Below, in pieces: positions 3,667 to 33,843 of a stretch of 64,000 bases of DNA. Each line of letters starts with the position of its first letter. Within the stretch, counting starts at the first letter, position 1. The notes under the pieces were generated by a model. The model was given only the letters and a program-made list of their open reading frames with translations, did not search any database and was not told where the DNA came from. Made by a program: the position numbers and the translations under genes. Source of the stretch: an uncultured Sphingomonadaceae bacterium (lineage in GTDB: Bacteria; Pseudomonadota; Alphaproteobacteria; Sphingomonadales; Sphingomonadaceae); assembly GCA_902806235.1 (NCBI GenBank), contig CADCVW010000030.1, forward strand, positions 21,187 to 85,186, read 5' to 3'.

Positions 3667-4250
3667 TCAGGAAGCCCCGGAGAGCCCCGCCCAGGGCCTT
3701 CGGGGCACTTCCGCAGTGGCTGGGTGCCCGCGCGATCGCGATGCACCTGAGGTTTGGCTGGCGCGTCCGCACCTTGGCTTGCAGTCCAGTTCTCCCGTTC
3801 TTCGCCTTACCCCCACGCGTGGCGCTGTAGCGGGACGCTCGGCGGGCAGCAGTTGGGATACCTTGCCGCCTGCCCAAGAGAGGCGCGGACTGGGTCCTCG
3901 CTGCTCACCGTGGACCTGTCGGACTGTTCTTTGGCGGACCGGCGGACTTTCTCACGCATGCGCTGTTCGCGCTCGTTGGCAGCGGGCAACGGCCGGCGCT
4001 CGTGGCGAAAGGGTGGGAGTTGGGGAATGCCGGACAGCAGGACGGGCAGCCCGCTGCCTCAAGCCGCCCGCCCCTACCCGTAGGGCACCACCGGGGAAGA
4101 AGTGGCGCGCCCTGCGCCGCTTATGGGCGCTACTGGTTGAGAGTTGGTGAAGGCCGGCCCGCTTCCGGTGGGGCGCAAAGTCTGCACGGCTGCCGATGCT
4201 ACGTTCGCGCGCCTTGAGCTCCGCTAACCAAGGCGCGACACGTGCAAATA

Positions 4251-15593: not shown

Positions 15594-16616
15594 TCAGCCC
15601 AGCAGGAGTAGCGCCGCCCCAGCTGACAGCGCCAGCGCGGCCGAGGTGGCGAGCGCGATCACCAGCAACGGCTTCGGCCCCGCCTTCAGCAGCTCGCCCA
15701 TCGGCGACAGGATGCCCGTCGCCGCCACCGCGCACGCCAGCAGCGCCGCCGCCGCCTGGCCTGCCGCGACGCCGGCCGCCGCGGGCACCGCCCCCATGGA
15801 GTTGGCGGCCGCGACGAGGAAGAAGCCCACCACGAACCACGGCAGGCCGATGCCGCGCGTCGTCCCTCGCTCGCCGCGCGGCAGGAAAAGCGCCACGATC
15901 GCCAGCACCGGCGCGAGCAGCGCCACCCGCGCCAGCTTGACGATCGCCGCCGTCTCCCCGGCTTCCGTGCTATACGAGTAGCCCGCCCCCAGCGCCTGCG
16001 CGACGTCGTGGATCGCCGCGCCGAGCATAAAGCCGGCGGCGCGGTCGCTTAAGCCGAGCTGCAGCGCGAAGGCGGGGTAGGCAACCATCGCCAGCGAGCT
16101 CGCCGCCGAGATGCCGACCAGCACCAGCGCCAGCCGCGCCTGCCCCGCGCGGCGTTCGCCCAGCGTGGTGGCGAGCGCGAGCGCGGCCGAGGCCCCACAG
16201 ATCGCCACGGCCCCGCCCGCGAGCGCGCCGAACGCGCTCCCCTGGCCGAGCGCGCGGCTCGCCGCCACGCCCGCGCCCATCGTCAGCGCGACGATGAGGA
16301 GGATGGCGATCAGCGCCTCCGGCCCCAATGCGAGCATGTCGCCCAGCGTCACCCGCGCGCCCACCAGCACGATCCCCGAGCGCAGCAGCGTCCGCGACGC
16401 GAAGCCGAGCCCCACCCGCAGCCGCTTGTCGTGGCCGAGGAAGTTTAGCGCCAGCCCGATCAGCAGGCTCATCAGCGTCAGCGGCGCGCCGTAGTGCTCG
16501 GACAGGTAGGCCGCGGCCAGGGTCGCCAGTGCCGCCACGATCAGCCCGGGGACGTAGTCGCGCCACGTCGTCTCGGGCGGCGGCGCGATGTCGCCGTACA
16601 AGTCCGCGGCCATCAT
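15594..16616 (-). CDS. YeiH family putative sulfate/sulfite exporter (PSE family)
   Basis: Polytopic; GLALNFLGHDKRLRVGLGFASRTLLRSGIVLVGARV, GGAVAICGASAALALA, AAIHDVAQALGAGY. Confidence 0.88.
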   Translation of the reverse strand: MMAADLYGDIAPPPETTWRDYVPGLIVAALATLAAAYLSEHYGAPLTLMSLLIGLALNFLGHDKRLRVGLGFASRTLLRSGIVLVGARVTLGDMLALGPEALIAILLIVALTMGAGVAASRALGQGSAFGALAGGAVAICGASAALALATTLGERRAGQARLALVLVGISAASSLAMVAYPAFALQLGLSDRAAGFMLGAAIHDVAQALGAGYSYSTEAGETAAIVKLARVALLAPVLAIVALFLPRGERGTTRGIGLPWFVVGFFLVAAANSMGAVPAAAGVAAGQAAAALLACAVAATGILSPMGELLKAGPKPLLVIALATSAALALSAGAALLLLG

Positions 16617-16675
16617 TGTCCCGGTCCCCGGCGCGGCCGGCCGCGTGCTCGTCTCCAGGCGACCCGCTCCGCTCG

Positions 16676-17938
16676 CTACGCTTCCGCCCTGACGATCCGC
16701 GGCAGGAGCAGCCGCAGCCAGCCGAAGGCGAGCAGGTAGGAGACCGCGGCGAAGGCGAACAGCGGGGTGTACCCGACGTCCGCCGTCAAGGCGTTGCCCG
16801 TGATCCACACGATCGCCATGCCGCCGAGGTTGCCGACGAACGCGCCCAGCGCGGTGACGCGGCCGACGGCGGCGCGCGGGAAGACGTCCGTGATGATGGA
16901 GAACAGGGTCAGGCTGAAGCCCTGGTGGCCGGCGAGCACCACGCCCATCATCACCGCCACCGGCCAGAAGCTGTTCAGCGCCAGCACCGCGGGCACGGGC
17001 AGCACGATGAGGGCGGAGACGAGGAGCACGCCCTTTCTGACGCGGTCCACGGGCACGCCGCGCTCCAGCAGGCGGGTGGACAAAGAGCCGGCCAGGAGCG
17101 CGCCGAGCGCCGAGCCCGCGAAGGCGATGGCGAGCGGCACCGCGAGATCCGTCGTGGAGAGCCCGAACTCGCGGCGGTAGAAATCGGGCAGCCAGAAGTT
17201 GAGCAGCCACCAGGTCGCGTCCGAGAGCGCCTTGGCGCCCAAGATCGCCCAAGTCGCACGCTGCGCGAGGATGCGGCCGATCGGCTCCCGCCGGTCATCG
17301 TGCGCCTGCCCGTCGCTCGCGACGTCGCCCGCGTCGAAGCGGACGCCGCGGGCGACGACGAGCCAAGCCGCCAGCACCACGAAGCCCGCAACCCCGGCGA
17401 CAACCAATGCGCCGCGCCAGCCGTAGGCCGCGGCGAGCGGCGGGATGAGGAAGGGCATGGCGATCGTGCCCGCGCTGGCGAGCGCGGTGCCCAGCCCGAT
17501 GGCGAGCGAGCGGCGGTTCGGCGCGAACAGGGTAGCGACCGTCTTGATGCTCAGCGGCGTCTGCACCGCCTCCGTCGCACCCAGGCCCACGCGGGCCGCG
17601 ACCACCTGCGCGCCCGTCCGCGCCCAACCGTGCAGCAGCGCGGCGAGGCTCCAGGCGGCGACGCCAACCACCATCGCCCGGCGCACGCCCAGTCGGTCGA
17701 TGAGCCAGCCGGTGAACAGGAAGGACATGGCCGCCGAGAACTGCGTCAGCGCCGCGAGCCGGCCGAAGTCGGCGTCGGTCCAGCCGAAGTCGGCGGACAT
17801 GTCAGGTTTCAGGATGGCGATGATCGGCCGGTCCATCGCGTTGAACACGCCCGCCACGCACAGCAGCCCGAACAGAATCCAGGCGCGCAACCCGGGGACG
17901 GCCTGCGCCGTTCCCGGGCTTGAGATGTTCGTGGCCAC
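16676..17938 (-). CDS. MFS transporter
   Basis: 12-TM pattern; GWLIDRLGVRRAM, NAMDRPIIAILKPDMSADFGWTDADFG. Confidence 0.88.
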   Translation of the reverse strand: MATNISSPGTAQAVPGLRAWILFGLLCVAGVFNAMDRPIIAILKPDMSADFGWTDADFGRLAALTQFSAAMSFLFTGWLIDRLGVRRAMVVGVAAWSLAALLHGWARTGAQVVAARVGLGATEAVQTPLSIKTVATLFAPNRRSLAIGLGTALASAGTIAMPFLIPPLAAAYGWRGALVVAGVAGFVVLAAWLVVARGVRFDAGDVASDGQAHDDRREPIGRILAQRATWAILGAKALSDATWWLLNFWLPDFYRREFGLSTTDLAVPLAIAFAGSALGALLAGSLSTRLLERGVPVDRVRKGVLLVSALIVLPVPAVLALNSFWPVAVMMGVVLAGHQGFSLTLFSIITDVFPRAAVGRVTALGAFVGNLGGMAIVWITGNALTADVGYTPLFAFAAVSYLLAFGWLRLLLPRIVRAEA

Positions 17939-17945
17939 CGCTACG

Positions 17946-20273
17946 TCACCGCCCGAAGTTTATCCGCCCCGTCACGCCGAAGTAGCGGTCCGCCTCGCGC
18001 GGAATGATGTAACGGTAGCCGCCGCCCGGCCCGCCGTTGGTGATCTGCGCGGCGAAGCTCGTATCGAGCAAGTTCCTGACCTGAAAGGTGAGCTTGAACC
18101 GGTCGTCGGCGTCGACGATGCCGGCCGACAGGTCGATGAGCGTGTAGCCGTCGATCTCGCCCGCCGCGCGGACGACGGGACTCGGGTCGAACAGCGATAG
18201 CTGGTCCGACTGGTAGGAGCCTTGCGCGCCGAAGGTGAAGTCGATCCCGCCGCCCGTCCGCGCCCGGTAGTCGAGACCCAGCGTGCCCTTGTGCTTGGGC
18301 GCGAAGGCGAGCGGGGTGCCCGACGGGATCACCTGCGTCGGCAGGCCGCCCGGCGGCAGGCGGAATTCATCCACTTGCGCGTCGGTGTAGGCGTAACCGC
18401 CCGAGATGTTGAGATCGCGCGCCGGCTGGAAGATCAGGTCCAGCTCCGCGCCGCGCGTGGACACGTCGCCCGCGTTGGTGAAGCGGGTGACCACCACCCC
18501 AGCCACCACGTCCGGATTGTTGGCCTGGAAATTCTTGTACTTGGCGTAGTAGCCGGCGAGGTTGAGCACGAGCCGCCCGTTGAGCAGGCTGTTCTTGAGG
18601 CCCACCTCGAAGCTGTCCGCCGTTTCCGCCTCGATCACGTTGGTGCCGATGGCGGTCAGGTTGAAGAACACGTTGTACGCCGGGCCTTTGTAGCCGCGGG
18701 CGTAGGTGGCGTAGAGCGTGTTGTCCTCCGACAGGTCGACCTGCGCGCCGACGCGCCCGGACAGGTTGTCCTTCGTCGTCGAGTCGCGGAACGGGCCGAA
18801 GCTCGGCTGGATGCCCGGCCCGGCGAGCGCGGTCGTGCGCTGGTGAAAGACGCTGAGCTTGTCGTGGGTGTACCGCAGCCCCGCGATCAACCGGAAGGCG
18901 TCGGACAAGGACAGGGTCGCTTGGCCGTAGGCGGCGAGGTTGTTGAACACGGAGCCGAAGCGCGCGGTGCCCGTCGGGAAGGTCGTCGCCGGCGCGCCCG
19001 GGCTGCCGCAGGGAATCAGGGTGGTCACCGCGGGGCCGTTGCAGACTACGTCGTCGCGGGTGAACACGCGCAGCGACTCGGCGCGCGAGTAGAAGCCGCC
19101 CAGCACATATTCGAGCGTGCGATTGTCGGGCGAGGTGAGGCGCAATTCTTGGCTGAAGGTGTCGCCGTCCTGCGGGCCGACGTCGTGCAGCTGGTTGGCG
19201 CCGACGTAGGCGCGGTAGAGGAAGTCGCCGTAGCGGATCTCGACGTTCTCATACTCGCGATACGCTGTGATGGAGGTGAAAACGTGCTCGCCGACGTCCA
19301 CGTCGAACTGGCCGGAGAAGCCGAACGACTTCTCCCGCGTCCGGGTGACGAGGTTCTGGCGGACGCGCCGTGTGCGGTCGCCGCGCGGCTCGGGCAGCGC
19401 GCCGGCGGTGAAGTTGCTCGGCGGCGTGCCGATCACCTCCGCGCAGCAATCGTCGTTCGCGCGGCGGTAGTCGGCGATGAAGGTCGCCTGGATCGACGGC
19501 GACAGCTCGGACACGAAGATGCCGCGCACGCCGTAGCGCCGGAAGCCGTTAACGTCGCGGCCGACCGTCTCGTTGCGGATGTTGCCGTCGAAGTTCGAGT
19601 AGAAGCCGACCACGCGCGCCGCCGAACGATCGTCCAGCGGCACGTTCAGCGCGAGCCGCGCGCGGTACTCGTCGGGGTCGAAGAACGCCGCTTCCGCGTA
19701 GCCGCCGAACTCGTCGGTCGGCCGCCGGCTGACGATGTTGACTACGCCGGCCGACGCGTTCTTGCCGAACAAGGTGCCCTGCGGCCCGCGCAGCACTTCG
19801 ATCCGCTCGATGTCGACGAGGTCGGCGAAGGCCTCGCCCGAGCGGCTGAACACCACGCCATCGAGCACGGTGGAGACCGACGGCTCGCCCGCGATGGAGA
19901 AGGTGGAGGTGCCCACGCCGCGCAGGAACAGCGACTGGTTGAGCGAGGTGCCCGACTTGCGGATGGTGAGGGTGGGGACGAGGTACTGCGCTTGCTCGAT
20001 GTTGACGCCGCCCTGCGCTTCCAGCGCCGCGCCCGACACGACGGACACCGCGACCGGCACGTCCTGCAGTCGCTCCGACCGCTTCTGCGCGGTGACGATG
20101 ATCTCGGCCGGCGCCTCGTCGGCGAGGGCGGGCGACTCGGACTGCGCCTGATCCGGCCCCTGGTCGGCGGCGGGCTCTTGGCCCGGCGGCAGGCTGTCCT
20201 GCGCGAGCGCGGGCGAGCCGAGCAGCGCACCCAGCGCGAGCAGGCTCGTCGTGGTCGTCAACAAAGCGCGCAT
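17946..20273 (-). CDS. TonB-dependent receptor
   Basis: Signal peptide; ADEAPAEIIVTAQKRSERLQDVPVAVSVVSG, plug ERIEVLRGPQGTLFGKNASAGVVNIVSRRP, beta-barrel repeats. Confidence 0.93.
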   Translation of the reverse strand: MRALLTTTTSLLALGALLGSPALAQDSLPPGQEPAADQGPDQAQSESPALADEAPAEIIVTAQKRSERLQDVPVAVSVVSGAALEAQGGVNIEQAQYLVPTLTIRKSGTSLNQSLFLRGVGTSTFSIAGEPSVSTVLDGVVFSRSGEAFADLVDIERIEVLRGPQGTLFGKNASAGVVNIVSRRPTDEFGGYAEAAFFDPDEYRARLALNVPLDDRSAARVVGFYSNFDGNIRNETVGRDVNGFRRYGVRGIFVSELSPSIQATFIADYRRANDDCCAEVIGTPPSNFTAGALPEPRGDRTRRVRQNLVTRTREKSFGFSGQFDVDVGEHVFTSITAYREYENVEIRYGDFLYRAYVGANQLHDVGPQDGDTFSQELRLTSPDNRTLEYVLGGFYSRAESLRVFTRDDVVCNGPAVTTLIPCGSPGAPATTFPTGTARFGSVFNNLAAYGQATLSLSDAFRLIAGLRYTHDKLSVFHQRTTALAGPGIQPSFGPFRDSTTKDNLSGRVGAQVDLSEDNTLYATYARGYKGPAYNVFFNLTAIGTNVIEAETADSFEVGLKNSLLNGRLVLNLAGYYAKYKNFQANNPDVVAGVVVTRFTNAGDVSTRGAELDLIFQPARDLNISGGYAYTDAQVDEFRLPPGGLPTQVIPSGTPLAFAPKHKGTLGLDYRARTGGGIDFTFGAQGSYQSDQLSLFDPSPVVRAAGEIDGYTLIDLSAGIVDADDRFKLTFQVRNLLDTSFAAQITNGGPGGGYRYIIPREADRYFGVTGRINFGR

Positions 20274-20378
20274 GAGCGTTCCCCCCGATCCGTCCCGCCC
20301 CGCCGCGGGTCTTCGCGGAGGAGCTACCATAGTGCGCGGCGCAGCGCCAAGGCCGCGCCGTGGCCCGGAAGCCACAGG

Positions 20379-21464
20379 TCAGAGGACTTCGCTCATCTCC
20401 ACCGCCCGGCGCTCGCGCGCGCTGATCTCGGCGGCCATGCCCATCGCCACCGCGCGCAGCCCGTCGTCGGCCGTCACCTCGACGGGCCCTTCGCCGCGCA
20501 CGGCGCGCAGGAACGCCTGGTGCTCGTAGAAGGTCGCGCCGTGGTGATGGCCTGCTCGGAGCGCCACTTCGTCGACGCCCACGTGGGTGCGCTCGGGCGC
20601 CTTCAGTTTCATGAAGCCGGTGCGCGGGCTGCGGACGAGGGTGCCGTCGGGAATGAAAACGTCGAGCCGGGCGGCGTTGCCCACCGCCGTCATTTCCTCC
20701 TGGTTCTCCGCTCCTTCAGCGAACATGCATAGGTCGAGCATGGCGCGCGTGCCGTCCGCGAAGTCGACGGTAGTATAGCTGTTGTCGATGATGTCCGGCC
20801 GCTCCCCCTCGTAGCGCTCGTCAACGTGGTTCACGTCCATCGCGCCCGAGCAGTAGACGCGCACCGGCTCCGACCGCACGATCAGGCGCATCAGGTCGAA
20901 GAAGTGGCAGCACTTCTCCACCATCGTGCCGCCTGTGTTGCGGTTGAACCGGTTCCAGTCCCCGACCTTGGGCAGGAAGGGGAAGCGGTGCTCGCGGATC
21001 GACAGCATCCGGAGCGCGCCGACGTCGCCGGCGTGGACGCGCCGGATGAACTCGGCGGCCGGCGGCATGTAGCGGTATTCCATCGCGGTCCAGAACACCC
21101 GTCCGCTGCTCGCCGCCGCTTCCGCCACCCAGCGCGCGTCCGCCACCGTGGTCGCCAGCGGCTTTTCGCACAGGATATGCACCTCGGCGTCGAACAAGGG
21201 CTCGAGCACCTCGCGGTGCGTGTGGTTCGGCGAGGCGACGACCACCGCGTCCACGTCGCCGCTCTCCGCTAACTCGGCCGCGCCCGCGTAGACGCTGATC
21301 CCGTCCGCCGCGTCGCCGAGCGCCTTGCGGGCCCAGCCCAGCGAGCGCTCCACCGGGTCGGCGATGGCGACCAGCCGCGCGCCGGGGGTAATCGCCAGGT
21401 TATTGATGTGCTCCACGCCCATCATGCCCGTGCCGACCAGGCCGTAGCGCACCACCTCTCCCAT
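20379..21464 (-). CDS. Gfo/Idh/MocA family NAD-binding protein (candidate NAD+-dependent glycosidase/dehydrogenase)
   Basis: VRYGLVGTGMMGVEHINNLA, CEKPLATTVADARW, NTGGTMVEKCCHFFDLMRLI. Confidence 0.9.
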   Translation of the reverse strand: MGEVVRYGLVGTGMMGVEHINNLAITPGARLVAIADPVERSLGWARKALGDAADGISVYAGAAELAESGDVDAVVVASPNHTHREVLEPLFDAEVHILCEKPLATTVADARWVAEAAASSGRVFWTAMEYRYMPPAAEFIRRVHAGDVGALRMLSIREHRFPFLPKVGDWNRFNRNTGGTMVEKCCHFFDLMRLIVRSEPVRVYCSGAMDVNHVDERYEGERPDIIDNSYTTVDFADGTRAMLDLCMFAEGAENQEEMTAVGNAARLDVFIPDGTLVRSPRTGFMKLKAPERTHVGVDEVALRAGHHHGATFYEHQAFLRAVRGEGPVEVTADDGLRAVAMGMAAEISARERRAVEMSEVL

Positions 21465-21492
21465 CGCGTCCCACCTCGTGTATGAGCGGCGC

Positions 21493-22410
21493 ATGGCCGA
21501 CCTCCTCCCTTCGCCCGAACCCCGCCCGCTCGGCAAGAGCGGCATCACCGTATCGCCCCTCGCCTGGGGCATGTGGCGCTTTGCCGGCGAGGACCTCCGG
21601 TCGGCGCAGGAGAAGGTTGAAGCGGTGCTGGAGGCAGGCGTTACCCTGTTCGACACCGCCGACATCTACGGCCCGGACAACGGCGAGCGGTTCGGCGCGG
21701 CCGAGCTGCTGCTGGGCCGGGTGTTCGCAGCGGCGAAGGGCCTGCGCAAGCGCATGGTGCTCGCCACCAAGGGCGGCATCGTCATCGGCACGCCCTACGA
21801 CTCGTCGGCCGACTATCTCGCCGCGGCAATCGATGCGTCTTTGAAGCGGCTCGGCGTCGAGCGGGTCGACCTGTGGCAGATCCACCGGCCCGACATGCTC
21901 ACCCACCCGCAGGAGGCGGCGCGCGCGCTTGAGAGCGCGATGCGCGCTGGCAAGGTGCGCGCGGTGGGCGTCTCCAACCACACGCCCGCGCAGACGCGGG
22001 CGCTGGCGAAGTACCTGCGCGAAGCGTCGGTGCCGCTCGCCTCCACCCAGCCCGAATTCTCGGCGCTCGCGCTCCAGCCGCTCGTCGATGGCACCCTCGA
22101 CCTCGCGATGCAGCGCGATATCGCCGTGCTCGCCTGGTCGCCGCTCGCGCAGGGGCGCATCGCCGCTCCGCAGGACGATCGCGCGCTGGCGGTGGCGGAG
22201 CTGCTCGACCGCAAGGCGGAGGAGGCGGGCGTGGAGCGCTCCGCCGCGGCGTTCAGCTGGATCATGGCGCACCCGTCGCGGGCGATCCCGATCGTCGGCA
22301 CGCAGAACGTGGCGCGCATCCGCGAGATCGGCGACGCGCTCAAGCCGCGCTGGACGCGGGCGGAATGGTACGAGGTGCTGCAGGCGTCGATGGGGGAGAA
22401 ACTGCCGTGA
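21493..22410 (+). CDS. Aldo/keto reductase
   Basis: FDTADIYGPDNGERFGAAELLLG, VLATKGG, VDLWQIHRPD, AWSPLAQGRI. Confidence 0.92.
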   Translation: MADLLPSPEPRPLGKSGITVSPLAWGMWRFAGEDLRSAQEKVEAVLEAGVTLFDTADIYGPDNGERFGAAELLLGRVFAAAKGLRKRMVLATKGGIVIGTPYDSSADYLAAAIDASLKRLGVERVDLWQIHRPDMLTHPQEAARALESAMRAGKVRAVGVSNHTPAQTRALAKYLREASVPLASTQPEFSALALQPLVDGTLDLAMQRDIAVLAWSPLAQGRIAAPQDDRALAVAELLDRKAEEAGVERSAAAFSWIMAHPSRAIPIVGTQNVARIREIGDALKPRWTRAEWYEVLQASMGEKLP

Positions 22411-23477
22411 GCGACGGGGCGAAGGGGTGCGAGGTCAGCTGGTTCTCGGCGCTGTGCGACGACGACTACGAGTTCCTGGGCGTCCCCGACGATAAGCTGA
22501 AGTCCAGCTGGGAGCACTGCCGTGACATCGTGCTCCAGGCGGAGACGAGCGGCTTCGATAACATCCTGCTGCCCAGCGGCTACCAGCTCGGCATCGACAC
22601 CGCCGCTTTCGCCGCGGCGATCGCGCCGATGCTGAAGCGCATGCGCCTGCTGATGGCCGAGCGGATCGGCGAAACCTGGCCGCCGCAGCTCGCGCGGCGC
22701 ATCGCCACCATCGACCGCATCCTCGGCGGGCGGCTGACAGTGAACGTTATCTCGTCGGACCTGCCCGGCGAGCAGCTGGCGTCGGCCCCGCGCTACCAGC
22801 GGACGCTCGAGGCGATGCTCATTCTCAAGACGCTGCTCAACGGCGAGCCGCTCGACCACCAGGGCGAGGCGTACAAGATTAAGGTCGATCCGCCGCGGGT
22901 AGGGACGGTGAGCGGCAGATGCCCGCAGCTCTACTTCGGCGGGCTGTCGCCGGATGCGCGCGAGGCCGCGGCGCGGGGCTGCGACGTTTATCTGATGTGG
23001 CCCGACCGCCGCGAGGCGGTCGCCGACATCATGGCCGACATGACGGCGCGCGCGGCGAAGCACGGGCGCACCCTGCGCTTCGGCTACCGCGTCCACGTGG
23101 TGGTGCGCGATACAGAAGCCGAAGCGCGCGCCGCGGCCGACCGGCTCCTGTCCAAGCTCGACGAAGGCGCGGGCGCGGCGATCCGCGCCAAGTCGCTCGA
23201 CTCGGCTTCGGCGGGCGTCGCCGCGCAGGCCGCGCTGCGCGAGACGGCGGCCGACGACGGCTACGCGGAAGAGAACTTGTGGACCGGCATCGGCCGCGCG
23301 CGCTCGGGCTGCGGCGCGGCGATCGTCGGCGATCCGGATCAGGTGCTGGCGAAGCTCCGCTTGTACCAAGACATGGGAATCGAGGCCTTCATTCTGTCGG
23401 GCTACCCGCATGCGGCGGAGGCCGACCTGTTCGCGCGCCACGTGCTGCCGAAGCTGGAGCACGGGCCGCTGGCCTGA
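22407..23477 (+). CDS. LLM class flavin-dependent monooxygenase, SsuD/SmoC-like
   Basis: GTG start overlapping AKR stop; CEVSWFSALCDDDYEFLGVPDDKLKSSWEHCRDIVLQAE, GRLTVNVISSDLPGE, LYFGGLSPDAREAAA, LRFGYRVHVVVRDTE, ENLWTGIGRARSGCGAAIVGDPDQV. Confidence 0.9.
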   Translation: MSDGAKGCEVSWFSALCDDDYEFLGVPDDKLKSSWEHCRDIVLQAETSGFDNILLPSGYQLGIDTAAFAAAIAPMLKRMRLLMAERIGETWPPQLARRIATIDRILGGRLTVNVISSDLPGEQLASAPRYQRTLEAMLILKTLLNGEPLDHQGEAYKIKVDPPRVGTVSGRCPQLYFGGLSPDAREAAARGCDVYLMWPDRREAVADIMADMTARAAKHGRTLRFGYRVHVVVRDTEAEARAAADRLLSKLDEGAGAAIRAKSLDSASAGVAAQAALRETAADDGYAEENLWTGIGRARSGCGAAIVGDPDQVLAKLRLYQDMGIEAFILSGYPHAAEADLFARHVLPKLEHGPLA

Positions 23478-23510
23478 CAGCGTTGGAGGACGGGTCGTTT
23501 CGACGCTGAT

Positions 23511-23613
23511 CCGTCACCCCCGCGAAGGCGGGGGTCTATGACCTTCCACGGTCGTGAGCGCGCACCGAGCCGGCGTCGGGGTTTATGAATTCCCGCTTTC
23601 GCGGGAATGACGG
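23511..23613. repeat. Paired palindromic intergenic element (BIME-like)
   Basis: CCGTCA + CCCCCGC-GAAG-GCGGGGG (23517-23534) ... TTCCCGC-TTTC-GCGGGAA (23590-23607) + TGACGG; between convergent genes. Confidence 0.8.
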
Positions 23614-23641
23614 GCTGGAGGAGGCGTCGCTCTTCCTCGCT

Positions 23642-25120
23642 TCACGCCAGCGCCCGCGCGAGCGCGCCGCGCCAGCCGTCAAGCAGCGCCGTCCGCTCCG
23701 CCGCCTCCATCCGCGGGGCGAAGCGCTCCGCCTTGCCCGCGAGCCTCGCCACCTCGTCGAGCCCGCTCCACAGCCCGACGCCGATCCCGGCGAGGAACGC
23801 CGCGCCGAGCGCGGTGCTCTCCAGATCGGCGCGCCGCTCGACGGGCGCATCCAGCACGTTGGCGAGGAACTGGAGTAGCCAGTCGCTCGCCGCCATGCCG
23901 CCGTCAACGCGGAGGACCACCGGTCGCGGCGCGCCGTCGCGCGCCGTGGCGTCGAGCAGGTCGGCGGTTTGGTAGGCGACCGCCTCCAGCGCGGCGCGCG
24001 CGAGGTGGGCGCGGGTGGTGGCGAGCGTCAGCCCGCTGAGGAGGCCCCGCGCGTCCGGCCGCCAGTGCGGCGCGCCGAGCCCCGTGAAGCCGGGCACCAT
24101 AAAAACGCCGCCGTTGTCGGGCACGGAGGCGGCGAGCGCGCCGGTTTCGGCCGCCTCCGCGATCAGGCCCAGGCCGTCGCGCAGCCACTTCACTGCCGCG
24201 CCCGCGACGAAGATGGAGCCTTCGAGAGCGAAGCAGGGCGCCCCGGCCAGCCGGTAGGCAGTGGTGGCGAGCAGCCGGTTGGTCGAGGGGAGCGGCTGCG
24301 CCCCCGTGTTCACCAGGAGGAAGCAGCCGGTGCCGTAGGTCGCCTTGGTCGCGCCCGGCGCGAAGCAGCCCTGGCCGACGAGCGCCGCCTGCTGGTCGCC
24401 CGCCACGCCGGCGATGGGGATGGCGCGGCCGAACAATCCGGGGTCGGTCTCGCCGAACGCCCCCGCGTTGTCGCGCACCTCCGGCAGCACCGCCATGGGT
24501 ACGTCGAGCAGGCCGCACAGCTCCTCGTCCCAAACTTGCTCGCGCAAGTCGAACAGCAACGTCCGGCTCGCGTTCGTAGGGTCCGTCGCGTGGATGCGCC
24601 CGCCCGTCAGCCGCCACAGCAGGAAGCTGTCGATTGTGCCAAAGGCGAGCTCGCCCGCCTCGGCGCGCGCGCGCGCGCCCGGGACGTGGTCGAGCAGCCA
24701 AGCGAGCTTGGTGCCAGAGAAATAAGGATCGAGCAGCAGCCCGGTGCGCGCCTGAACCAGCGGCTCGTGGCCCGCGGCGCGGAGCATCGCGCACTGGTCG
24801 GCCGTGCGCCGGTCCTGCCAGACGATCGCGCGGTGGATAGGGACCCCGGTCGCGCGATCCCAGACCACGGCCGTCTCGCGCTGGTTGGTGATGCCGATCG
24901 CCGCCACCGTGTCCGCGCCGACGCGGCCGACGACCTCGCGCGCGGTGGCCAGGACGTCGCGCCAGATATCTTCCGCGTCGTGTTCGACCCAACCGTCGGC
25001 GGGGTAGTGCTGCGGCAGTTCGGCTTGGGCGGCGGCGACGGCGCGGGCTCCGCGGTCGAACAGGATGCTGCGCGTCGACGTGGTGCCCTGGTCGATGGCC
25101 AGGATGTACCGTCCGCTCAC
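23642..25120 (-). CDS. glpK: Glycerol kinase
   Basis: [47 protein letters not shown]. Confidence 0.95.
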
Positions 25121-26616
25121 GCGCCCGCCTCCGCCGTCGCTCCGCTCATCCGCTTCTCCACCCTCGCGACTTCCGCCGCGCTCATGTGCAGCCCGAGCTT
25201 GGTGCGTCGCCACAGCACGTCCTCCGCGGTCAGCGCCCACTCCTCCTTTTCGAGGTAGGCGAGCTCGCGCTCGTGCAGACCCGCGCCGTAATGCGGGCCC
25301 AGGTCGTCCAGGTCGGCCGCGTCGCCCAGCACCCGCTCGAGCCGCGACCCGTAGGCGTGGGCCAGCCGCCGGGCGAGCGGCGCGGGCAGAAACGGCCAAC
25401 GCGCGCGCGCCGCGGCCAGAAAGGAGTCGAACGCGCCGATGTCGCCGCCGGGCAGCGGGGCCGCGCCCGTCCAGGCGGCGCCCGCGTCGGGCAGATGCGG
25501 GCGGAGCTTGTCCACCGCCTGCTCGGCGAGCCGGCGAAAGGTGGTGATCTTGCCGCCGAACACCGACAGCATCGGCGCGCCCGGCCCGTCGCTTAATTCC
25601 AGCACGTAATCGCGCGTCACCGCCGAGGCGTCGTCCGCGCCGTCGTCGAACAAGGGGCGCACGCCCGAATAGCTGTGCACCACGTCGCCCGGCCCGATTT
25701 CGCGGCGGAGGTAGCGGTTCGCGCTCTCGCATAGGTAGGCGACCTCGTGCGCGTCGATCCGCGCTGGGCCGTCCGCGGTGGTCCAGGGCACGTCGGTGGT
25801 GCCGATCAGCGTGTAGTCCCCTTCGTACGGGATGGCGAAGACGATGCGGGTGTCCGGGTTCTGCAGGATGAAGGCGTGGTCGCCGGCGAAGAGGCGGGGC
25901 ACGACGATGTGGCTGCCCTTCACCAGCCGCGGGTGGCGGCCGGGGGTCCCCGCCGCCTCCAGCAGCGCGCCGACGGACGCGCCGGCGGCGTTGACGACGG
26001 CGCGGGCGGCGACCTCGCGCCAGCCCTTCTCGTCACGCAGGGTGGCGGTCCACGTCCCCGGCCCGCGGCGCAGCGCCGTCACGCGCGTCCGCGTGAGCAC
26101 TTCCGCCCCCCGCTCGCGCGCGTCCAGCGCTAAGAGCGCGACGAGCCGCGCGTCGTCTACCCAGCAATCGGCGTAGGAGAAGCCGCGGGCGACGTGCGGC
26201 TTCAGCCCCTGCCCGAGCGGCGTCCCCGCGAGCTTCACCCCGCGCGAGCCGGGCAGCGTGCGCCCGCCGCCTAAGTTGTCGTAGAGCAACAGCCCGAGCC
26301 GGATCAGCCAGCCCGGCCGCCCGTTCGGCGGCCGCGGCAGCACGAAGGTGAGCGGGTAGACGAGGTGCGGCGCGACGCGGAGCAGCCGCTCGCGCTCACG
26401 CAACGCCTCGCGCACCAGCCGGAACTCGTAATATTCGAGGTAGCGTAGCCCGCCGTGGATCAGCTTGGTCGACGCCGACGAGGTTTGCCCGGCGAGGTCG
26501 CCGGCCTCCGCCAGCAGCGCGCGCAGGCCCCGCCCGGCCGCGTCGCGCGCGATCCCCGCGCCGTTGACGCCGCCGCCGACGATCAGCAAGTCGTATGGGG
26601 GTGCTTCCCTGATCAT
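25117..26616 (-). CDS. glpD: Glycerol-3-phosphate dehydrogenase
   Basis: [39 protein letters not shown]. Confidence 0.95.
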
Positions 26617-26658
26617 CCGCCGCGCTCCATAGCGCGGCGGATGGCGGAGAGGAACGGC

Positions 26659-27255
26659 ATGGCGAGGCCCCTGGTGGTCGGCATCGGCGGCACGGTCGCG
26701 ACCAATAGCTCGACGGAGCAGGCGCTGCGCCTCGCGCTCGCCGCCGCGGCGGAAGCAGGGGCGGAAACGCGGCTGTTCGGCGGCGGATATCTCGCGCAGT
26801 TGCCGCACTACATGACCGACTCCGACGCGGCCTGCACCAAGTGCGCCGAGCTGATCGAGGCGGTGCGCGCGGCGGACGGGCTGGTGATCGCCAGCCCGGG
26901 CTACCACGGCTCGATCTCCGGTCTGGTCAAGAACGCTATCGATTACCTGGAGGAAACCGCCAAGGACCCGCGCGTGTACCTGGACGGGGTGCCCGTCGGC
27001 CTGATCGCCACCGCCTACGGCTGGCAGGCGACCGGATCGACGCTGGCGACGCTCCGCTCGATTGTCCACGCGCTCCGCGGCTGGCCGACGCCGCTCGGCG
27101 CGGCAATCAACAGTTCGGGCGGCATCTTCCGCGACGGGGATTGCACAGACGCGGGGGCTGCGGGGCAGCTGCGGCTCGTCGGCCGCCAAGTGTTCGAGTT
27201 CGCGCGGCTGCGGCGCAGCGACCCGGCCGTGATGGAAACCGGCCCGCAGGCCTAG
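26659..27255 (+). CDS. NAD(P)H-dependent FMN reductase (flavodoxin-like fold)
   Basis: VVGIGGTVATNSSTEQALRLAL, ADGLVIASPGYHGSISGLVKNAIDYLEE, GVPVGLIATAYG. Confidence 0.87.
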   Translation: MARPLVVGIGGTVATNSSTEQALRLALAAAAEAGAETRLFGGGYLAQLPHYMTDSDAACTKCAELIEAVRAADGLVIASPGYHGSISGLVKNAIDYLEETAKDPRVYLDGVPVGLIATAYGWQATGSTLATLRSIVHALRGWPTPLGAAINSSGGIFRDGDCTDAGAAGQLRLVGRQVFEFARLRRSDPAVMETGPQA

Positions 27256-27259
27256 CGTC

Positions 27260-28324
27260 ATGCGCGTCTTGCTCACGGCCGACGCGGTCGGCGGGGTGTG
27301 GACCTACGCACTCGACCTCGCCCGCGCGCTCGCGCCGCTCGACGTAGAGGCGGTGGTCGCCGTGATGGGTCCGTCGCCCGGCCCGGCGTTGCGGGAAGCG
27401 GGAAGCGGTATCCAGCTGATCGACACGGGGCTGCCGCTCGACTGGCTGACTGACGACCGCTCGGCCGCCCGGCGCGCCGGCGAGGCGCTGGCCGCGCTCG
27501 CCGCGGAGGAGCGCGTGGACCTCGTCCACCTCAACGCCCCGCCGCTGGCAGTCGCGCCCTTCCCCGTCCCCGTGCTCGCCGTCGCGCACAGTTCGGTCGC
27601 GACCTGGTGGACGGCGGTGAAGGGTGCGGAGTTGCTGCCGGCCGACTTCGCATGGCGCGCGGCGCAGTTCGGCGAAGGGCTGCGTGTCGCCGCCCGCGTC
27701 GCTGCGCCGAGCGCCGCCTACGCCGACGCGGTGGCGCGAACCTACGGCCTGCCCGCGCGTCCGACGGTCGTCCACAATGCCCGCGCTCTGCTGTCCCTGA
27801 CGCCCACCGTCGCGCCCGCGTCCCACGCGTTCACCGCCGGCCGCCTATGGGACGAGGGGAAAGGGACGGCGACCCTCGACCGCGCGGCCGCGCTCGCCGC
27901 GGTACCGGTCCTCGCCGCGGGCCCGCTTCTCGGACCGAACGGCGTACGGGCCGAGGCGCCGCACCTCTGCTGCATAGGCAATCTCTCCGAACCCGAGCTG
28001 TTGGCGCGGCTGGCTGAGCGCCCGATCTTTGTCTCCGCCGCGCTATACGAGCCTTTCGGCCTGTCAGTGCTGGAGGCAGCGCACTTTGGCTGCGCGCTGG
28101 TTCTATCCGAAAATTCTACCTTTCGCGAGTTATGGGACGGAGCGGCACGCTTCGTGCCAGCGCGCGACGCGGAAGCCTATGCCGCGGCGCTGGATGCGCT
28201 GGTGGCCGACAGGCCGGAACGCGCGCTACTCGGGGCGGCGGCGCGGGCGCGGGCCGGGCGGTTCACGGTGGAACGACAGGCGCGGGCGTATCTGACGCTG
28301 TACCGGGAAATGCTCATCGAGTAG
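27260..28324 (+). CDS. Glycosyltransferase family 4
   Basis: MRVLLTADAVGGVWTYALDLARAL; YEPFGLSVLEAAHFGCALVLS. Confidence 0.88.
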   Translation: MRVLLTADAVGGVWTYALDLARALAPLDVEAVVAVMGPSPGPALREAGSGIQLIDTGLPLDWLTDDRSAARRAGEALAALAAEERVDLVHLNAPPLAVAPFPVPVLAVAHSSVATWWTAVKGAELLPADFAWRAAQFGEGLRVAARVAAPSAAYADAVARTYGLPARPTVVHNARALLSLTPTVAPASHAFTAGRLWDEGKGTATLDRAAALAAVPVLAAGPLLGPNGVRAEAPHLCCIGNLSEPELLARLAERPIFVSAALYEPFGLSVLEAAHFGCALVLSENSTFRELWDGAARFVPARDAEAYAAALDALVADRPERALLGAAARARAGRFTVERQARAYLTLYREMLIE

Positions 28325-28391
28325 CACCAACGAACAAGGGCCCATGTTCCCTGCTTGCGGGCGCGCAACGAATCGGCCAAGCCGTCGCGCC

Positions 28392-29483
28392 ATGAAGATC
28401 GTCGTCTTCGGCCTCACCGTCAGCTCCTCTTGGGGCAACGGCCACGCGACGCTCTGGCGCGGGCTGATCCGCGCGCTCGACCGGCTCGGGCACCGGGTGG
28501 TCTTCTTCGAACGCGACGTCGACTACTACGCCCATTTCCGGGATCTCCGAGCGTTGCCTGGCGCGTCGGAGCTGGTACTGTACCCCGATTGGACGGCTGC
28601 GCGCGAGCGCGCGGCGCGGGAAGTGGCGGACGCCGACGTGGCGATGACCACCTCCTATTGCCCCGACGCGGTCGCCGCCGCCGCGCTGATCGCGGAGCGC
28701 GCGCCCGCCGCCAAGCTGTTCTACGATCTCGACACGCCGGTGACGCTCGCCAAGCTGGCCGCGGGCGAACATCCCGCCTACTTGCCAGCGCACGGGCTGG
28801 GCGACTTCGACCTCGTGCTCAGCTATACAGGGGGCGCGGCGCTCGATGCGCTGCGCGACCGGCTCGGCGCGCGCGAGGCGGTCCCGCTTTACGGCCATGC
28901 CGATCCCGAGCAGCACCGCCCCGGCCCCCCTGACGCGCACTTCGCGGGCGACCTGTCCTACCTCGGCACCTACGCCGGCGACCGGCAGAACGCCTTGCGG
29001 GAGCTGTTCATCGAGCCCGCAAAGCTTCGCCCGGCGCAGCGATTCGTTCTCGGTGGCTCGGGCTACCCAGAAGACTTTCCCTGGACGGACAACATCTTCT
29101 TCGTCCGGCACTTACCGCCGCCCGACCACCCGAGCTTCTTTTCTTCGTCGAGGCTGACCCTCAACATCACCCGCGCCGACATGGCGGCGATGGGTTGGTG
29201 CCCGTCCGGCCGCCTGTTCGAGGCGGCGCTGTGCGGTTGCCCGCTGCTCAGCGACGATTGGGAAGGGCTCGATCGCTTCTTCGTCCCTGGCGAGGAGCTG
29301 CTGATCGCCCGTACCCGCGAGGACAGCGTCGCCGCCCTCGACCTCGGCGCGGCGGAGCTCGCCGCCGTCGCCCGCCGCGCCCGCGAGCGGGTGCTCGCCG
29401 AGCACACGAGCGAGCACCGCGCGCGCGCGCTGACCGAACTGGTCCGGGGCATCGCCGCGCCGCAGCGCGCGGCGGCGGAGTAG
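28392..29483 (+). CDS. CgeB-like glycosyltransferase
   Basis: SSSWGNGHATLWRGLIRALDRLGHRVVFFERDVDYYAHFRDL; GRLFEAALCGCPLLSDDWEGLDRFFVPGEELLI. Confidence 0.82.
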   Translation: MKIVVFGLTVSSSWGNGHATLWRGLIRALDRLGHRVVFFERDVDYYAHFRDLRALPGASELVLYPDWTAARERAAREVADADVAMTTSYCPDAVAAAALIAERAPAAKLFYDLDTPVTLAKLAAGEHPAYLPAHGLGDFDLVLSYTGGAALDALRDRLGAREAVPLYGHADPEQHRPGPPDAHFAGDLSYLGTYAGDRQNALRELFIEPAKLRPAQRFVLGGSGYPEDFPWTDNIFFVRHLPPPDHPSFFSSSRLTLNITRADMAAMGWCPSGRLFEAALCGCPLLSDDWEGLDRFFVPGEELLIARTREDSVAALDLGAAELAAVARRARERVLAEHTSEHRARALTELVRGIAAPQRAAAE

Positions 29484-29488
29484 GCGAC

Positions 29489-30247
29489 ATGTGGGGCATC
29501 ATCCCGGCCGCCGGCAACGGCACGCGCATCCAGCCGCTCGCCTTCTCTAAGGAACTGCTGCCCGTAGGCGCGCGCGAGGGCGTCGGCGCGGGCGTCGCAG
29601 AGCGTCCCAAGGCGGTGAGCGAATATCTCGTCGAGCGCATGGTGGCGGGCGGGGCGACCAAGATCGCCTTCGTGATCTCGCCCGGCAAATCGGACATCAT
29701 GGAATATTACGCGCGGCAGGAGGGCGGGCCGAGCATGGCCTACGTCGTCCAGCCGAAGGCGGTCGGCCTGTGCGACGCGATCTTCCGCGCCCACCCAGTG
29801 ATCGGGGCGGACGAGCCGGTGATCGTGGGGTTGCCCGACACCATCTGGTTCCCGGAGGAGGCACTGGCGTCGCTGCCGGACGACCGATTGAGCTTCCTTC
29901 TCTTCCCGGTCGAGCGGCCGGAGCTGTTCGACGCGGTGCGGACGGACGACGCGGGCAACATAAGGGAGATCCAAGTCAAGCAGGCGGACGCCGCGACGCG
30001 CTGGATTTGGGGCGCGTTCAAGATGCCCGGGCGCTTGTTCCACGAGCTGCGCGCCTTCTGGGCCGCGCGGCCGGAGCCGGACGAATATGTCGGGACGCTG
30101 GTGAACGCCTGGCTGGCGCAGGGCGGTTCGGCGGTCGGCGTGCGCGCGGGCGAGAGCTACGTGGACGTCGGCACGCTCGATGGGTATCGCTCGGCAATAC
30201 AGCTGCTGCGGCCGGAGCCGGCGGCGGGAGCGGGCCGGGCCGCGTGA
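29489..30247 (+). CDS. Sugar nucleotidyltransferase family protein
   Basis: MWGIIPAAGNGTRIQPLAFSKELLPVG; VIVGLPDTIW. Confidence 0.88.
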   Translation: MWGIIPAAGNGTRIQPLAFSKELLPVGAREGVGAGVAERPKAVSEYLVERMVAGGATKIAFVISPGKSDIMEYYARQEGGPSMAYVVQPKAVGLCDAIFRAHPVIGADEPVIVGLPDTIWFPEEALASLPDDRLSFLLFPVERPELFDAVRTDDAGNIREIQVKQADAATRWIWGAFKMPGRLFHELRAFWAARPEPDEYVGTLVNAWLAQGGSAVGVRAGESYVDVGTLDGYRSAIQLLRPEPAAGAGRAA

Positions 30248-31026
30248 TGGACCTCCCCGCCCGGCTCGCCGCCGGGGAGCCGATCACCGAACCCGTGCTC
30301 CTCGTCGTCGGGCATCCCGACGACGAGACGGTGAGCCTGGGCGCGGCGCTGCCGCGCTTCGCCGACCTGACGATCCTGCACCTCACTGATGGTGCGCCGC
30401 GCGACGGGGTAGACGCGCGGCGGCACGGGTTCGCCCGAGTGGACGACTATGCGGCGGCGCGGCGGTGCGAGCTGGATGAGGCGCTCCGCTCGCTCGGCGT
30501 CGCTCCGCGCCGGATCGCGCTCGGCCTGCCCGACCAGGAGGCGCTGGGCGGGTTGCCGGCGATCCTCGACGTGCTCCGGGCCGAGCTACCCCGCCACCGC
30601 GCAGTACTCACCCATCCTTACGAGCACGGCCACCCGGATCATGACACTGCCGCCCTCGCCGTCGCGCTCGCGACGCGGGAAGCCGACATCAACTATGTCG
30701 AGTTCGCCTCCTACCATCGCGGCCCGGACGGCGACGTCTTTGGCCGGTTCTGGCCGGACTTGGCGAGTCCCGAAGTCGAGCTGCCTATCGATGCCGCTGC
30801 GCTGGAGCGCAAGGCGGCGGCGCTCTCCTGCTTCCGCACCCAGCAGGGCACGCTGGCGCTGCTCCCGCTCGCTCCCGAACGGCTGCGGCGCGCGCCGGCC
30901 TACGACTTCGCCGCGGCCGCGCCGCCGGGCGAGGCGTGGTACGATCGCCTCGGTTGGGCGACGACGGCCGAGCGCTGGCGGTCGGAGGTCGCGGAGCTTC
31001 TGCGTGCCGCAGCGGAGCCCGCGTGA
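30247..31026 (+). CDS. PIG-L (LmbE-like) deacetylase
   Basis: VLLVVGHPDDETVSLGAAL; LTHPYEHGHPDHDTAAL. Confidence 0.93.
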   Translation: MDLPARLAAGEPITEPVLLVVGHPDDETVSLGAALPRFADLTILHLTDGAPRDGVDARRHGFARVDDYAAARRCELDEALRSLGVAPRRIALGLPDQEALGGLPAILDVLRAELPRHRAVLTHPYEHGHPDHDTAALAVALATREADINYVEFASYHRGPDGDVFGRFWPDLASPEVELPIDAAALERKAAALSCFRTQQGTLALLPLAPERLRRAPAYDFAAAAPPGEAWYDRLGWATTAERWRSEVAELLRAAAEPA

Positions 31027-32048
31027 GCCTGACGGTGCTCAGCGTCGCCTACCCGTTCGCCCCGGTATCGCCCGATCCGGTGGGCGGGGCGGAGGCCGTG
31101 CTCGCCGCGGTCGACGCGGCGCTGGTCGCCGCGGGCCATCGCTCGCTGGTGATCGCGCAGGAAGGATCGCGGGTGGCGGGGGTGCTTCTGCCTGTGCCCG
31201 CCGTCCGCGGCGAGATCGACGACGCGGCGCGCGAGCGCGTCCACGCCGTCGTTCGCGCCACGATCAGCGATGTCCTCGCGCGCGAGCGGGTGGACGCGGT
31301 CCACCTCCACGGGATCGACTTCGGCGCCTACCTGCCGCCGCCGGGCCCGCCCGCGCTGGTCACCCTGCACCTGCCGCTCGATTGGTATCCGGCGGACGCG
31401 CTCCGCCCTGCTCGGCCGCGGACCTTCCTCCACCCCGTTTCGCCGAGCCAGGCGCGCGCCGCGCTTCCCGGGGCGGCGCTCGAGTCGCCGATCGAGAACG
31501 GCGTGGCGCTGCCGCCGCGCGCGCCGACCAAGCGGTGCTACGCCTTCGCGCTCGGCCGCATCTGCCCGGAAAAAGGCTTCGACGACGCGCTGGACGCCGC
31601 GCGTGCGGTCGACGCGCCCTTGCTGCTGGCGGGCGAAGCGTTTCCGTATGCCGAGCACCAGGCTCACCTGCGTAACGCGATCTTACCCCGGCTGGACTCG
31701 CGCCGCCGCTGGCTCGGTGCGGTCGCGGGCGCGCGCAAGCGGCGGCTCCTAGCCGGCGCGCGCTGCCTGCTCGTGCCGAGCAAGGCGCCCGAAACCTCGT
31801 CGCTCGTCGCCATGGAAGCGCTCGCCGCGGGCACGCCAGTGATCGCTTACCGGGCCGGCGCGTTGCCCGACATCGTGGAGGACGGCGTGACGGGGTATCT
31901 GGTGGACGGGCCGGCGGAGATGGCGGCGGCGATCGGGCGGGCGGGTGAGATCGGCTCCGCCGCGTGCCGCGCCGCCGCCGGCGCGCGCTTCTCGCGAGAG
32001 CGCATGACGGACGCCTACCTCGCTCGCTACGCGGAGCTCGCCGCATGA
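31023..32048 (+). CDS. Glycosyltransferase family 4
   Basis: GRICPEKGFDDALDAA; PSKAPETSSLVAMEALAAGTPVIAYRAGALPDIVEDGVTGYLV; GTG start overlapping upstream TGA. Confidence 0.9.
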   Translation: MSLTVLSVAYPFAPVSPDPVGGAEAVLAAVDAALVAAGHRSLVIAQEGSRVAGVLLPVPAVRGEIDDAARERVHAVVRATISDVLARERVDAVHLHGIDFGAYLPPPGPPALVTLHLPLDWYPADALRPARPRTFLHPVSPSQARAALPGAALESPIENGVALPPRAPTKRCYAFALGRICPEKGFDDALDAARAVDAPLLLAGEAFPYAEHQAHLRNAILPRLDSRRRWLGAVAGARKRRLLAGARCLLVPSKAPETSSLVAMEALAAGTPVIAYRAGALPDIVEDGVTGYLVDGPAEMAAAIGRAGEIGSAACRAAAGARFSRERMTDAYLARYAELAA

Positions 32049-32896
32049 GCAACGTTGCGGCCCTTCCCCTGCGTTGGGAGCGGGCGCTCGCCCGTCATCG
32101 CGCGGGCGAGCTGTCCGCGCCCGTGGCACTGGCGCAACTGCTGCTGGCCGGGGAAGAGGCGAACGTGGCGGAAGCGCTCGCCGGCCGGCCAGGCTGCGAG
32201 GAGATCGTCGCGCTCGCTCGCGCCAACGCGGGGCGGCTCGACGTGTTGCGCGAACTCGTCGCCGACCTGGGCGGCGCGGACGCGTCCGTAGAGGGGACGC
32301 GCGCGCTGTTCGATCACCTGGCCGCGCGCGCGCCCGAAGCGGGGGTCGCCATCTACTCGCTCGGCGACCCGGCGCTGCTCGACGCGGCGACCGCCGAGCT
32401 CGTGGAGGTCATCGAGCGCTGGGCGGGGCTGGCCGGACGGGACCTGTTCGACTTCGGCTGCGGCATCGGCCGGGTGTCGGTCGCCGCCGCGTCCCGCGCG
32501 CGATCGGTGCTCGGGCTGGACCTGTCGCCGGGCATGCTGGCGGAAGCGCGCCGCCGCGCGGCCGGGCTCGCCGACGTGCGCTTCGTGCTCGGCGACGGGC
32601 GCGGTCTGGAGCCCGTGCCGGACGCGAGCGTCGACGTGGCGATCGCCGCCGACAGCGTGCCTTTTCTGGTGAGCGCGGGCGACGATCTGCTCGACCGCCA
32701 TTTCGGCGAGTTCGCCCGCTCACTGCGGCCCGGCGGCGACCTGCTCGTGTTCAACTGGTCCTACCGCGGCAATCCGGCCGCCGACATCGCTGACGCGCGT
32801 CGGCTGGCCGCCGCGCACGGCTTCGCCGTCCTGCGCGCGGGCGAAGCGCCGTTCCGTCTCTGGGACGGCGTCGGCTTCCACCTGCGCCGCGCGTGA
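32045..32896 (+). CDS. Class I SAM-dependent methyltransferase
   Basis: LFDFGCGIGRVSVAAASRARSVLGLDLSPGMLAEAR. Confidence 0.9.
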   Translation: MSNVAALPLRWERALARHRAGELSAPVALAQLLLAGEEANVAEALAGRPGCEEIVALARANAGRLDVLRELVADLGGADASVEGTRALFDHLAARAPEAGVAIYSLGDPALLDAATAELVEVIERWAGLAGRDLFDFGCGIGRVSVAAASRARSVLGLDLSPGMLAEARRRAAGLADVRFVLGDGRGLEPVPDASVDVAIAADSVPFLVSAGDDLLDRHFGEFARSLRPGGDLLVFNWSYRGNPAADIADARRLAAAHGFAVLRAGEAPFRLWDGVGFHLRRA

Positions 32897-33843
32897 TCGA
32901 CCCTGCCGAGCACTGGGCGCTGTGGCGTCGCGACCCGCGCGCGACGCCGTTCCAGTCTCCCGCGTGGCTGGGTGCCTGGTGGAAGCATTTGGGCGGCGGC
33001 GAGCGGATCGACCTCGCCGCGCGCAAGGCCGACGGCGCGCTCGTCGGTCTGCTGCCCGCCTTCGTCTGGGTGGACGAAGGCACGCGCAAGCTCGTGCCGG
33101 TCGGCGCGGGGCACAGCGACTACCTCGATGCGCTGATCGATCCAGCGCATGACGGTCGCGCGCTCACCGGCTTGGCCGCCGCGCTCGACGCGGAGCGCGC
33201 GCGCTTCGACGAGGTATTCCTGCCCGACCTGCGCGCCGACTCGCCGCTACTGCGCCTGAGCCGGAGCTGGGCGGTGCGGGACGAGCCGGGCGAGGTCTGC
33301 CCGGTGGCGCGCTTCGATGCGGGCGCGCCGCTGCTCGCGCAGCTGAGCAAGACGCGCCGCCGCAAGGTGGTGCACGACCGGCATCGCGCCGAGGCTCTGG
33401 GCGGCGTGTCCGTCGCGCTGGCTGCGCCGGACGAGGTCGACGGCGCGCTTCATGCGCTGTTCGCGCTCCACGCCACGCGCTGGGCGACGGTGGGAGCAGT
33501 CGGCGTGCTCGCCGACCCCAAGGTGCAAGCCTTCCACCGCGCCGCCGCGCCCGCGCTAGCGGGGGCGGGGCTGCTCCGGTTGGTGCTGGTGCGGCGCGAG
33601 GGGCGGATCGTCGCGGTGCTGCTCGGCTTCGCCGACGGGCGGCGCGGCTATTCCTACATCAACGGCGTGGATCACTCGGCGCCCAAGCAGAGCTTCGGCA
33701 CGCTAGCCTTCGAAGCGCTGATCGAAGACGCGCTGCGCGGCGGCGCGACCGAGTTCCACTTCCTGCGCGGGGAGGAGCCGTACAAATACGGCTGGGGCGC
33801 GGAGCCGACGCGGACGGTGCGGCGGGTAATGCGATCCGCCTAG
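32893..33843 (+). CDS. GNAT/CelD-like (FemAB-type) acyltransferase
   Basis: DPRATPFQSPAWLGAWWKHLGGG; LSKTRRRKVVHDRHRAE; FLRGEEPYKYGWG. Confidence 0.83.
   Translation: MIDPAEHWALWRRDPRATPFQSPAWLGAWWKHLGGGERIDLAARKADGALVGLLPAFVWVDEGTRKLVPVGAGHSDYLDALIDPAHDGRALTGLAAALDAERARFDEVFLPDLRADSPLLRLSRSWAVRDEPGEVCPVARFDAGAPLLAQLSKTRRRKVVHDRHRAEALGGVSVALAAPDEVDGALHALFALHATRWATVGAVGVLADPKVQAFHRAAAPALAGAGLLRLVLVRREGRIVAVLLGFADGRRGYSYINGVDHSAPKQSFGTLAFEALIEDALRGGATEFHFLRGEEPYKYGWGAEPTRTVRRVMRSA

Follow-up and report, generated by a model that had tools for sequence, protein, structure and literature searches.

A candidate sulfoquinovose monooxygenase gene cluster with probable TonB-dependent uptake and a predicted GH188 sulfoquinovosidase in an uncultured sphingomonad

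Introduction

The sulfoquinovose monooxygenase (sulfo-SMO, also called sulfo-ASMO) gene cluster of Agrobacterium fabrum combines an ATP-binding cassette (ABC) transporter with a binding protein, a sulfoquinovosidase of glycoside hydrolase family 31 (GH31) and an exporter of a family other than YeiH. Here we analyse a locus of an uncultured Sphingomonadaceae bacterium that, judged from its sequence, is very probably a sulfo-SMO cluster that enables growth on free sulfoquinovose (SQ), on the plant sulfosugar glycoside sulfoquinovosyl-glycerol (SQGro) or on both. The locus lies in a stretch of 64,000 nucleotides, hereafter the window, which corresponds to bases 21187-85186 of contig CADCVW010000030.1 in a genome of 2.72 Mb (about 90% complete, 112 contigs); by its named relatives, this genome belongs in or near the Sphingomonadaceae. 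The A. fabrum cluster and the locus have in common a luciferase-like monooxygenase (LLM), an aldo-keto reductase (AKR), a sulfur-oxyanion exporter and a sulfoquinovosidase. The window differs by its TonB-dependent receptor and major facilitator superfamily (MFS) transporter, by a sulfoquinovosidase of family GH188, by the YeiH type of its exporter and by an identity of 55-57% at the level of SmoC, the SQ monooxygenase.

Sulfoquinovose production has been estimated at 10 billion tons a year (PMC10755693), and in stable-isotope 13C-SQ incubations, in which Novosphingobium became labelled, Sphingomonadaceae such as this genus counted among the chief degraders in freshwater (PMC13372026). The sulfo-ASMO cluster of Novosphingobium aromaticivorans DSM 12444 resembles the window in joining SmoC/SquD with the AKR SquF in a sphingomonad, and it has no dedicated flavin reductase alongside (PMC9594981). 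It was found via the GH31 sulfoquinovosidase YihQ, whereas the window encodes a GH188 protein, and no GH31 sulfoquinovosidase (PF01055) was found in its roughly 90% complete genome. GH188 is also combined with sulfo-SMO genes in clusters of the Roseobacter clade, that is, in marine Rhodobacterales (PMC10755693). From the same bacterial order as the window comes Sphingomonas sp. Leaf17, whose sulfo-SMO cluster with GH188 stands among the representative SQ clusters of the same study (PMC10755693, Fig. 5); as far as the figure legend tells, it resembles the window in having GH188 replace GH31. The combination of GH188 with sulfo-SMO (PMC10755693) and the occurrence of sulfo-ASMO in Novosphingobium (PMC9594981) are already published. 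The layout with TonB receptor, MFS transporter and glycerol genes, apparently common in sphingomonads, appears not to have been described in the accessible literature. A search combining sulfoquinovose terms with TonB returned no title or abstract on a sulfosugar receptor, with most subscription papers outside its coverage.

Results

The LLM protein of the locus scored about 400 bits against the Protein Data Bank (PDB) chains 7oh2 and 7olf, which we take to be SmoC of Rhizobium oryzae and Agrobacterium, versus 190-224 bits against SsuD chains; the corresponding identities were 55-57% and 34-37%. At the 119 alignment columns that discriminate two SmoC from two SsuD chains, it matched SmoC at 59 and SsuD at 15, and a tree of 58 rows split SsuD from SmoC and all cluster LLM proteins with a support of 100/100. 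The original prediction, an earlier reading of this DNA, had described the protein as SmoC-like rather than as a generic alkanesulfonate enzyme and had named three sequence motifs in it. Tree, discriminating columns and PDB scores bear out the former, and all three motifs are present (LMWPD at residues 196-200, FGYRVHV at 225-231 and SGYPH at 331-335). An assignment as SsuD alkanesulfonate monooxygenase was rejected, given the tree and a TIGR03565 score of 245.7 bits against an equivalog cut-off of 518.2.

These data bear on a competing explanation, a general desulfonation of alkanesulfonates for sulfur supply by an SsuDE-like system to which the neighbouring sugar enzymes would be incidental. 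The families of LLM, AKR and flavin mononucleotide (FMN) reductase are indeed broad, and the reductase of the window bears a weak likeness to MsuE/SsuE. However, the LLM protein falls with SmoC in the tree and reaches less than half of the SsuD cut-off, the locus is without an ssuABC-type ABC transporter, and a sulfoquinovosidase (GH188 or GH31) is kept beside the LLM gene in 135 of 151 related loci. We regard this explanation as highly improbable.

Directly upstream, the AKR found its best PDB matches in chains 7bbz and 7bby, which presumably represent SmoB, with 163 bits versus 120 for the next chain and 38% identity over 273 residues. The AKR stop overlaps the GTG start of the LLM gene by 4 bases. 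The two genes thus adjoin each other, where the published definition of a sulfo-SMO cluster asks for SmoB plus SmoC within 10 open reading frames (PMC13372026).

On the opposite strand, the protein with a Gfo/Idh/MocA fold is, by its sequence, a member of GH188 and a predicted sulfoquinovosidase. It scored 366 bits (about 52% identity) against 8qc3/8qc2, the crystallised NAD-dependent GH188 sulfoquinovosidases of Kaur et al. 2023 (PMC10755693). Against all other families, inositol and sugar dehydrogenase chains included, it scored at most 91 bits, except for the GH188-like chain 8zn9. All nine active-site and sulfonate-binding residues of ArSqgA, with positions from PMC10755693 and PMC11465081, are kept: K107, Y136, E163 (position 164 in our numbering), R166, L170, K172, E189, H193 and H321. 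Of these, the sulfonate-binding R166, L170 (through its backbone) and K172 correspond to R160, L164 and K166 of the window protein. The nine were likewise invariant in 71 of 71 SMO-linked homologues and in 20 further homologues. Scores and residues uphold the predicted assignment to GH188 rather than to the inositol or sugar dehydrogenases; together with a TIGR04380 score of 128.9 bits (cut-off 355), they led us to reject inositol 2-dehydrogenase (IolG) or sugar dehydrogenase as an identity. The loop adjoining the sulfonate site near L170 has a length of 25 residues in the window protein, as in 70 of the 71 SMO-linked homologues, versus 33-35 in the crystallised members. A shortened loop has been published for Tyr-variant GH188 proteins, yet the window protein combines it with Leu.

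We then compared gene neighbourhoods at 151 distinct loci with an LLM homologue (80 from sampled family genomes and 80 from named organisms, deduplicated). The homologue occurred in 106 of the 401 sampled family genomes, about a quarter. The AKR was found at 142 of the 151 loci, the TonB receptor at 122, the MFS transporter at 97, a LacI-type regulator at 90 and the YeiH type of exporter at 53, the identities of GH31 and LacI being confirmed by Pfam. With the AKR and the TonB receptor adjoining the LLM gene this often, the association is not due to chance. GH188 was present at 69 loci, GH31 at 66 and neither at 16, and no locus had both, versus about 30 expected under independence. That two unrelated sulfoquinovosidase families replace each other in this way is, of all that the gene context provides, the strongest evidence for the substrate. 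A GH188/AKR/LLM divergon also occurs in cultured relatives, among them Sphingomonas sp. Leaf230, S. echinoides and S. hylomeconis. Among family genomes with a GH188 protein of at least 65% identity, 51 of 52 also had a SmoC homologue (106 of 401 overall; kinship not corrected).

A rival reading is a sulfosugar pathway for a substrate other than SQGro, such as beta-linked SQ, lyso-sulfoquinovosyl diacylglycerol or sulfofucose. GH188 enzymes act on both alpha and beta SQ glycosides (PMC10755693), the size of the TonB receptor points to a ligand that is larger or less abundant, and 70 of the 71 SMO-linked homologues have a loop near L170 that is shorter than that of the crystallised enzymes by 8-10 residues. 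On the other hand, every SQ-contacting GH188 residue is conserved, GH31 sulfoquinovosidases take the place of GH188 in sister loci, and glycerol genes, as SQGro would predict, recur beside the cluster. We consider such a substrate unlikely.

For the transport genes, recurring synteny was joined by a shared operator in relatives. The LacI-type palindrome TGACANCGNTGTCA, with a central CG, overlaps the AKR start or lies just upstream of it in many of them. At up to one mismatch, cluster loci totalling 2.79 Mb contained 90 matches to it, versus two in a reversed-sequence control, and the nearest genes were those for the AKR (33), TonB receptor (13), MFS transporter (12) and GH188 (12). Its position upstream of receptor and MFS genes links both, in relatives, with the genes of catabolism. 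The uptake and export functions proposed earlier thereby gain support: TonB receptor and MFS transporter are probable importers of SQGro/SQ, and the YeiH-type protein is a probable sulfite/sulfate exporter. Elsewhere, the genome encodes a molybdopterin oxidoreductase, which may or may not act on sulfite.

In the pathway that we propose, SQGro would cross the outer membrane through the TonB receptor and the inner membrane through the MFS transporter. Cytoplasmic GH188 would release SQ via transient C3 oxidation with bound NAD+, and the SmoC-like LLM protein, supplied with reduced FMN, would break the C-S bond of SQ, yielding sulfite and 6-oxo-glucose. The latter would be reduced to glucose by the SmoB-like AKR, while the YeiH-type protein would export sulfite or sulfate. 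GlpK would phosphorylate the glycerol set free in the cell, and GlpD would oxidise the product to dihydroxyacetone phosphate. FMNH2 might come from the reductase encoded at 26659-27255 or from another one in the genome.

The last two steps concern genes whose membership is less clear. In a narrower version of our reading, the functional unit is the six-gene divergon 15594-23477 only, its minus strand carrying GH188, TonB receptor, MFS transporter and YeiH-type exporter and its plus strand AKR and LLM, and glpK, glpD and the FMN reductase gene lie beside it without a functional link. The layout speaks for separate units, for glpD-glpK is a minus-strand pair of its own, convergent to the LLM gene and pointing back at it. 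The FMN reductase gene lies on the far side of glpD, 3.2 kb from the LLM gene and directly ahead of a glycosyltransferase operon, so that it is not co-transcribed with AKR and LLM. Against this version, glpD and/or glpK stand beside the SmoC homologue at 29 of the 151 loci (glpD at 28, glpK at 15) in several orders and orientations, including runs of LLM-glpD-FMN reductase-glpK, and FMN_red genes, found at 32 loci, adjoin SmoC in two separate lineages. The window glpK (654.8 bits on TIGR01311, cut-off 590.4) is the sole GlpK match and glpD the sole DAO_C match in the genome, in which, at its completeness of about 90%, no MIP-type glycerol channel was found; this fits glycerol generated inside the cell, with the reserve that the genome is incomplete. 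We hold the narrower version to be a real contender, if not the one that we favour. A glycerol branch formed by glpK and glpD, as originally predicted, is plausible: its recurrence exceeds chance, and the support is circumstantial.

The prediction that the FMN reductase is the SmoA of the pathway was not supported. In the tree, the window reductase fell outside both lineages that adjoin SmoC in relatives, and the SMO core genes, glpKD and the downstream glycosyltransferase operon were all absent from the neighbourhoods of 20 of its nearest non-cluster relatives. A role as cluster-specific SmoA was rejected on these grounds, and by its sequence the protein should not be named SmoA. The reductase may nonetheless act in the pathway, given that the N. 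aromaticivorans cluster also does without a dedicated reductase (PMC9594981).

Table 1. Features of the locus, with positions in the window.
Feature	Positions	Strand	Basis
YeiH-type (PF03601) transporter, probable sulfite/sulfate exporter	15594..16616	-	Pfam PF03601 1e-50; TIGR00698 YeiH 5e-33, under its cut-off
MFS transporter, probable inner-membrane SQGro/SQ importer	16676..17938	-	PF07690 3e-41
TonB-dependent receptor, probable outer-membrane SQGro/SQ importer	17946..20273	-	PF00593, PF07715
Predicted NAD+-dependent sulfoquinovosidase GH188 (SqgA-like), Gfo/Idh/MocA fold	20379..21464	-	PDB chains 8qc3/8qc2, 366 bits
28-bp divergent region, GH188 start codon to AKR start codon	21465..21492	.	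LacI-type operator not found
Aldo-keto reductase, SmoB/SquF-like (predicted: 6-oxo-glucose to glucose)	21493..22410	+	PDB chains 7bbz/7bby, 163 bits
LLM-family flavin monooxygenase, SmoC/SquD-like (predicted sulfoquinovose monooxygenase)	22407..23477	+	7oh2/7olf 400 bits; tree
Glycerol kinase GlpK, probable glycerol branch	23642..25120	-	TIGR01311 655 bits, cut-off 590
Glycerol-3-phosphate dehydrogenase GlpD, probable glycerol branch	25117..26616	-	NF009906 698 bits
NAD(P)H:FMN reductase, possible monooxygenase partner	26659..27255	+	PF03358 9e-26

All nine predicted genes are present in the predicted order, including the stop/start overlap of AKR and LLM (Table 1). The minus-strand genes for GH188, TonB receptor, MFS transporter and YeiH-type exporter are separated by about 105, 7 and 59 bases. 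Directly downstream of the FMN reductase gene, a run of glycosyltransferase and sugar-nucleotide genes extends over 27260-33843.

Discussion

The original prediction had seen a complete SQ/SQGro pathway in this locus. Its six-gene sulfo-SMO core stands, the lineage of the FMN reductase does not fit, and glpK and glpD remain circumstantial. Several observations weigh against the complete pathway or parts of it. The PDB names of the chains that we recognise as SmoC and SmoB are generic; the nearest relatives of the window FMN reductase (66-77% identity) sit at non-SMO loci; and adjacent glpKD are mostly missing from the loci whose SmoC sequences are closest. No LacI gene lies at the window locus, where the 16-base form of TGACANCGNTGTCA likewise had no match at up to three mismatches; the three LacI proteins encoded elsewhere in the genome are 29-47% identical to the LacI proteins of the clusters. 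Finally, in a genome about 90% complete in 112 contigs, statements that a gene is the only copy or absent are provisional.

Beyond the single locus, we lean, if only slightly, towards a sphingomonad-wide format for SQGro uptake in which a TonB receptor and an MFS transporter, interchangeable GH188 and GH31 sulfoquinovosidases, the SMO enzymes and often glpK/glpD act as one unit, in relatives under one LacI-type operator. If this is true, outer-membrane transport of a sulfosugar glycoside would be the specific function of the TonB receptor. The locus and its relatives offer a testable part list for glycoside uptake and cleavage in sphingomonads, with a candidate receptor, a candidate operator and a fate for the glycerol.

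Some related loci depart from this arrangement. Five from Rhizobium/Rhizobiaceae (L146, L150, L155, L156 and L158) carry SmoC proteins 74-76% identical to that of the window and nested within the sphingomonad clade; in L155 and L146, SmoC is found beside apparent LacI and ABC transporter genes in place of AKR and TonB receptor. The placement and the neighbourhoods of these Rhizobiaceae sequences suggest horizontal transfer into another transport format. At 11 SMO loci (L039 at 3388-4140, L143 and L161 among them), a PhyH-family 2-oxoglutarate dioxygenase is encoded beside the TonB receptor or MFS transporter.

A second GH188 clade, 49-56% identical, was present in 28 of the 401 family genomes, none of which had SmoC (0 of 28; L200-L219). 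In these genomes the GH188 gene shares a conserved cluster with genes for an AKR, a TauD-family dioxygenase and an SSF symporter. The TauD protein found its best PDB matches in the plant protein At3g21360 (1y0z) and in 9yut, and is unrelated by BLAST to the PhyH-family dioxygenases of the SMO loci. From its gene content, the cluster looks like a sulfoquinovose dioxygenase (sulfo-SDO) pathway, which has been described as characteristic of Gammaproteobacteria (PMC13372026).

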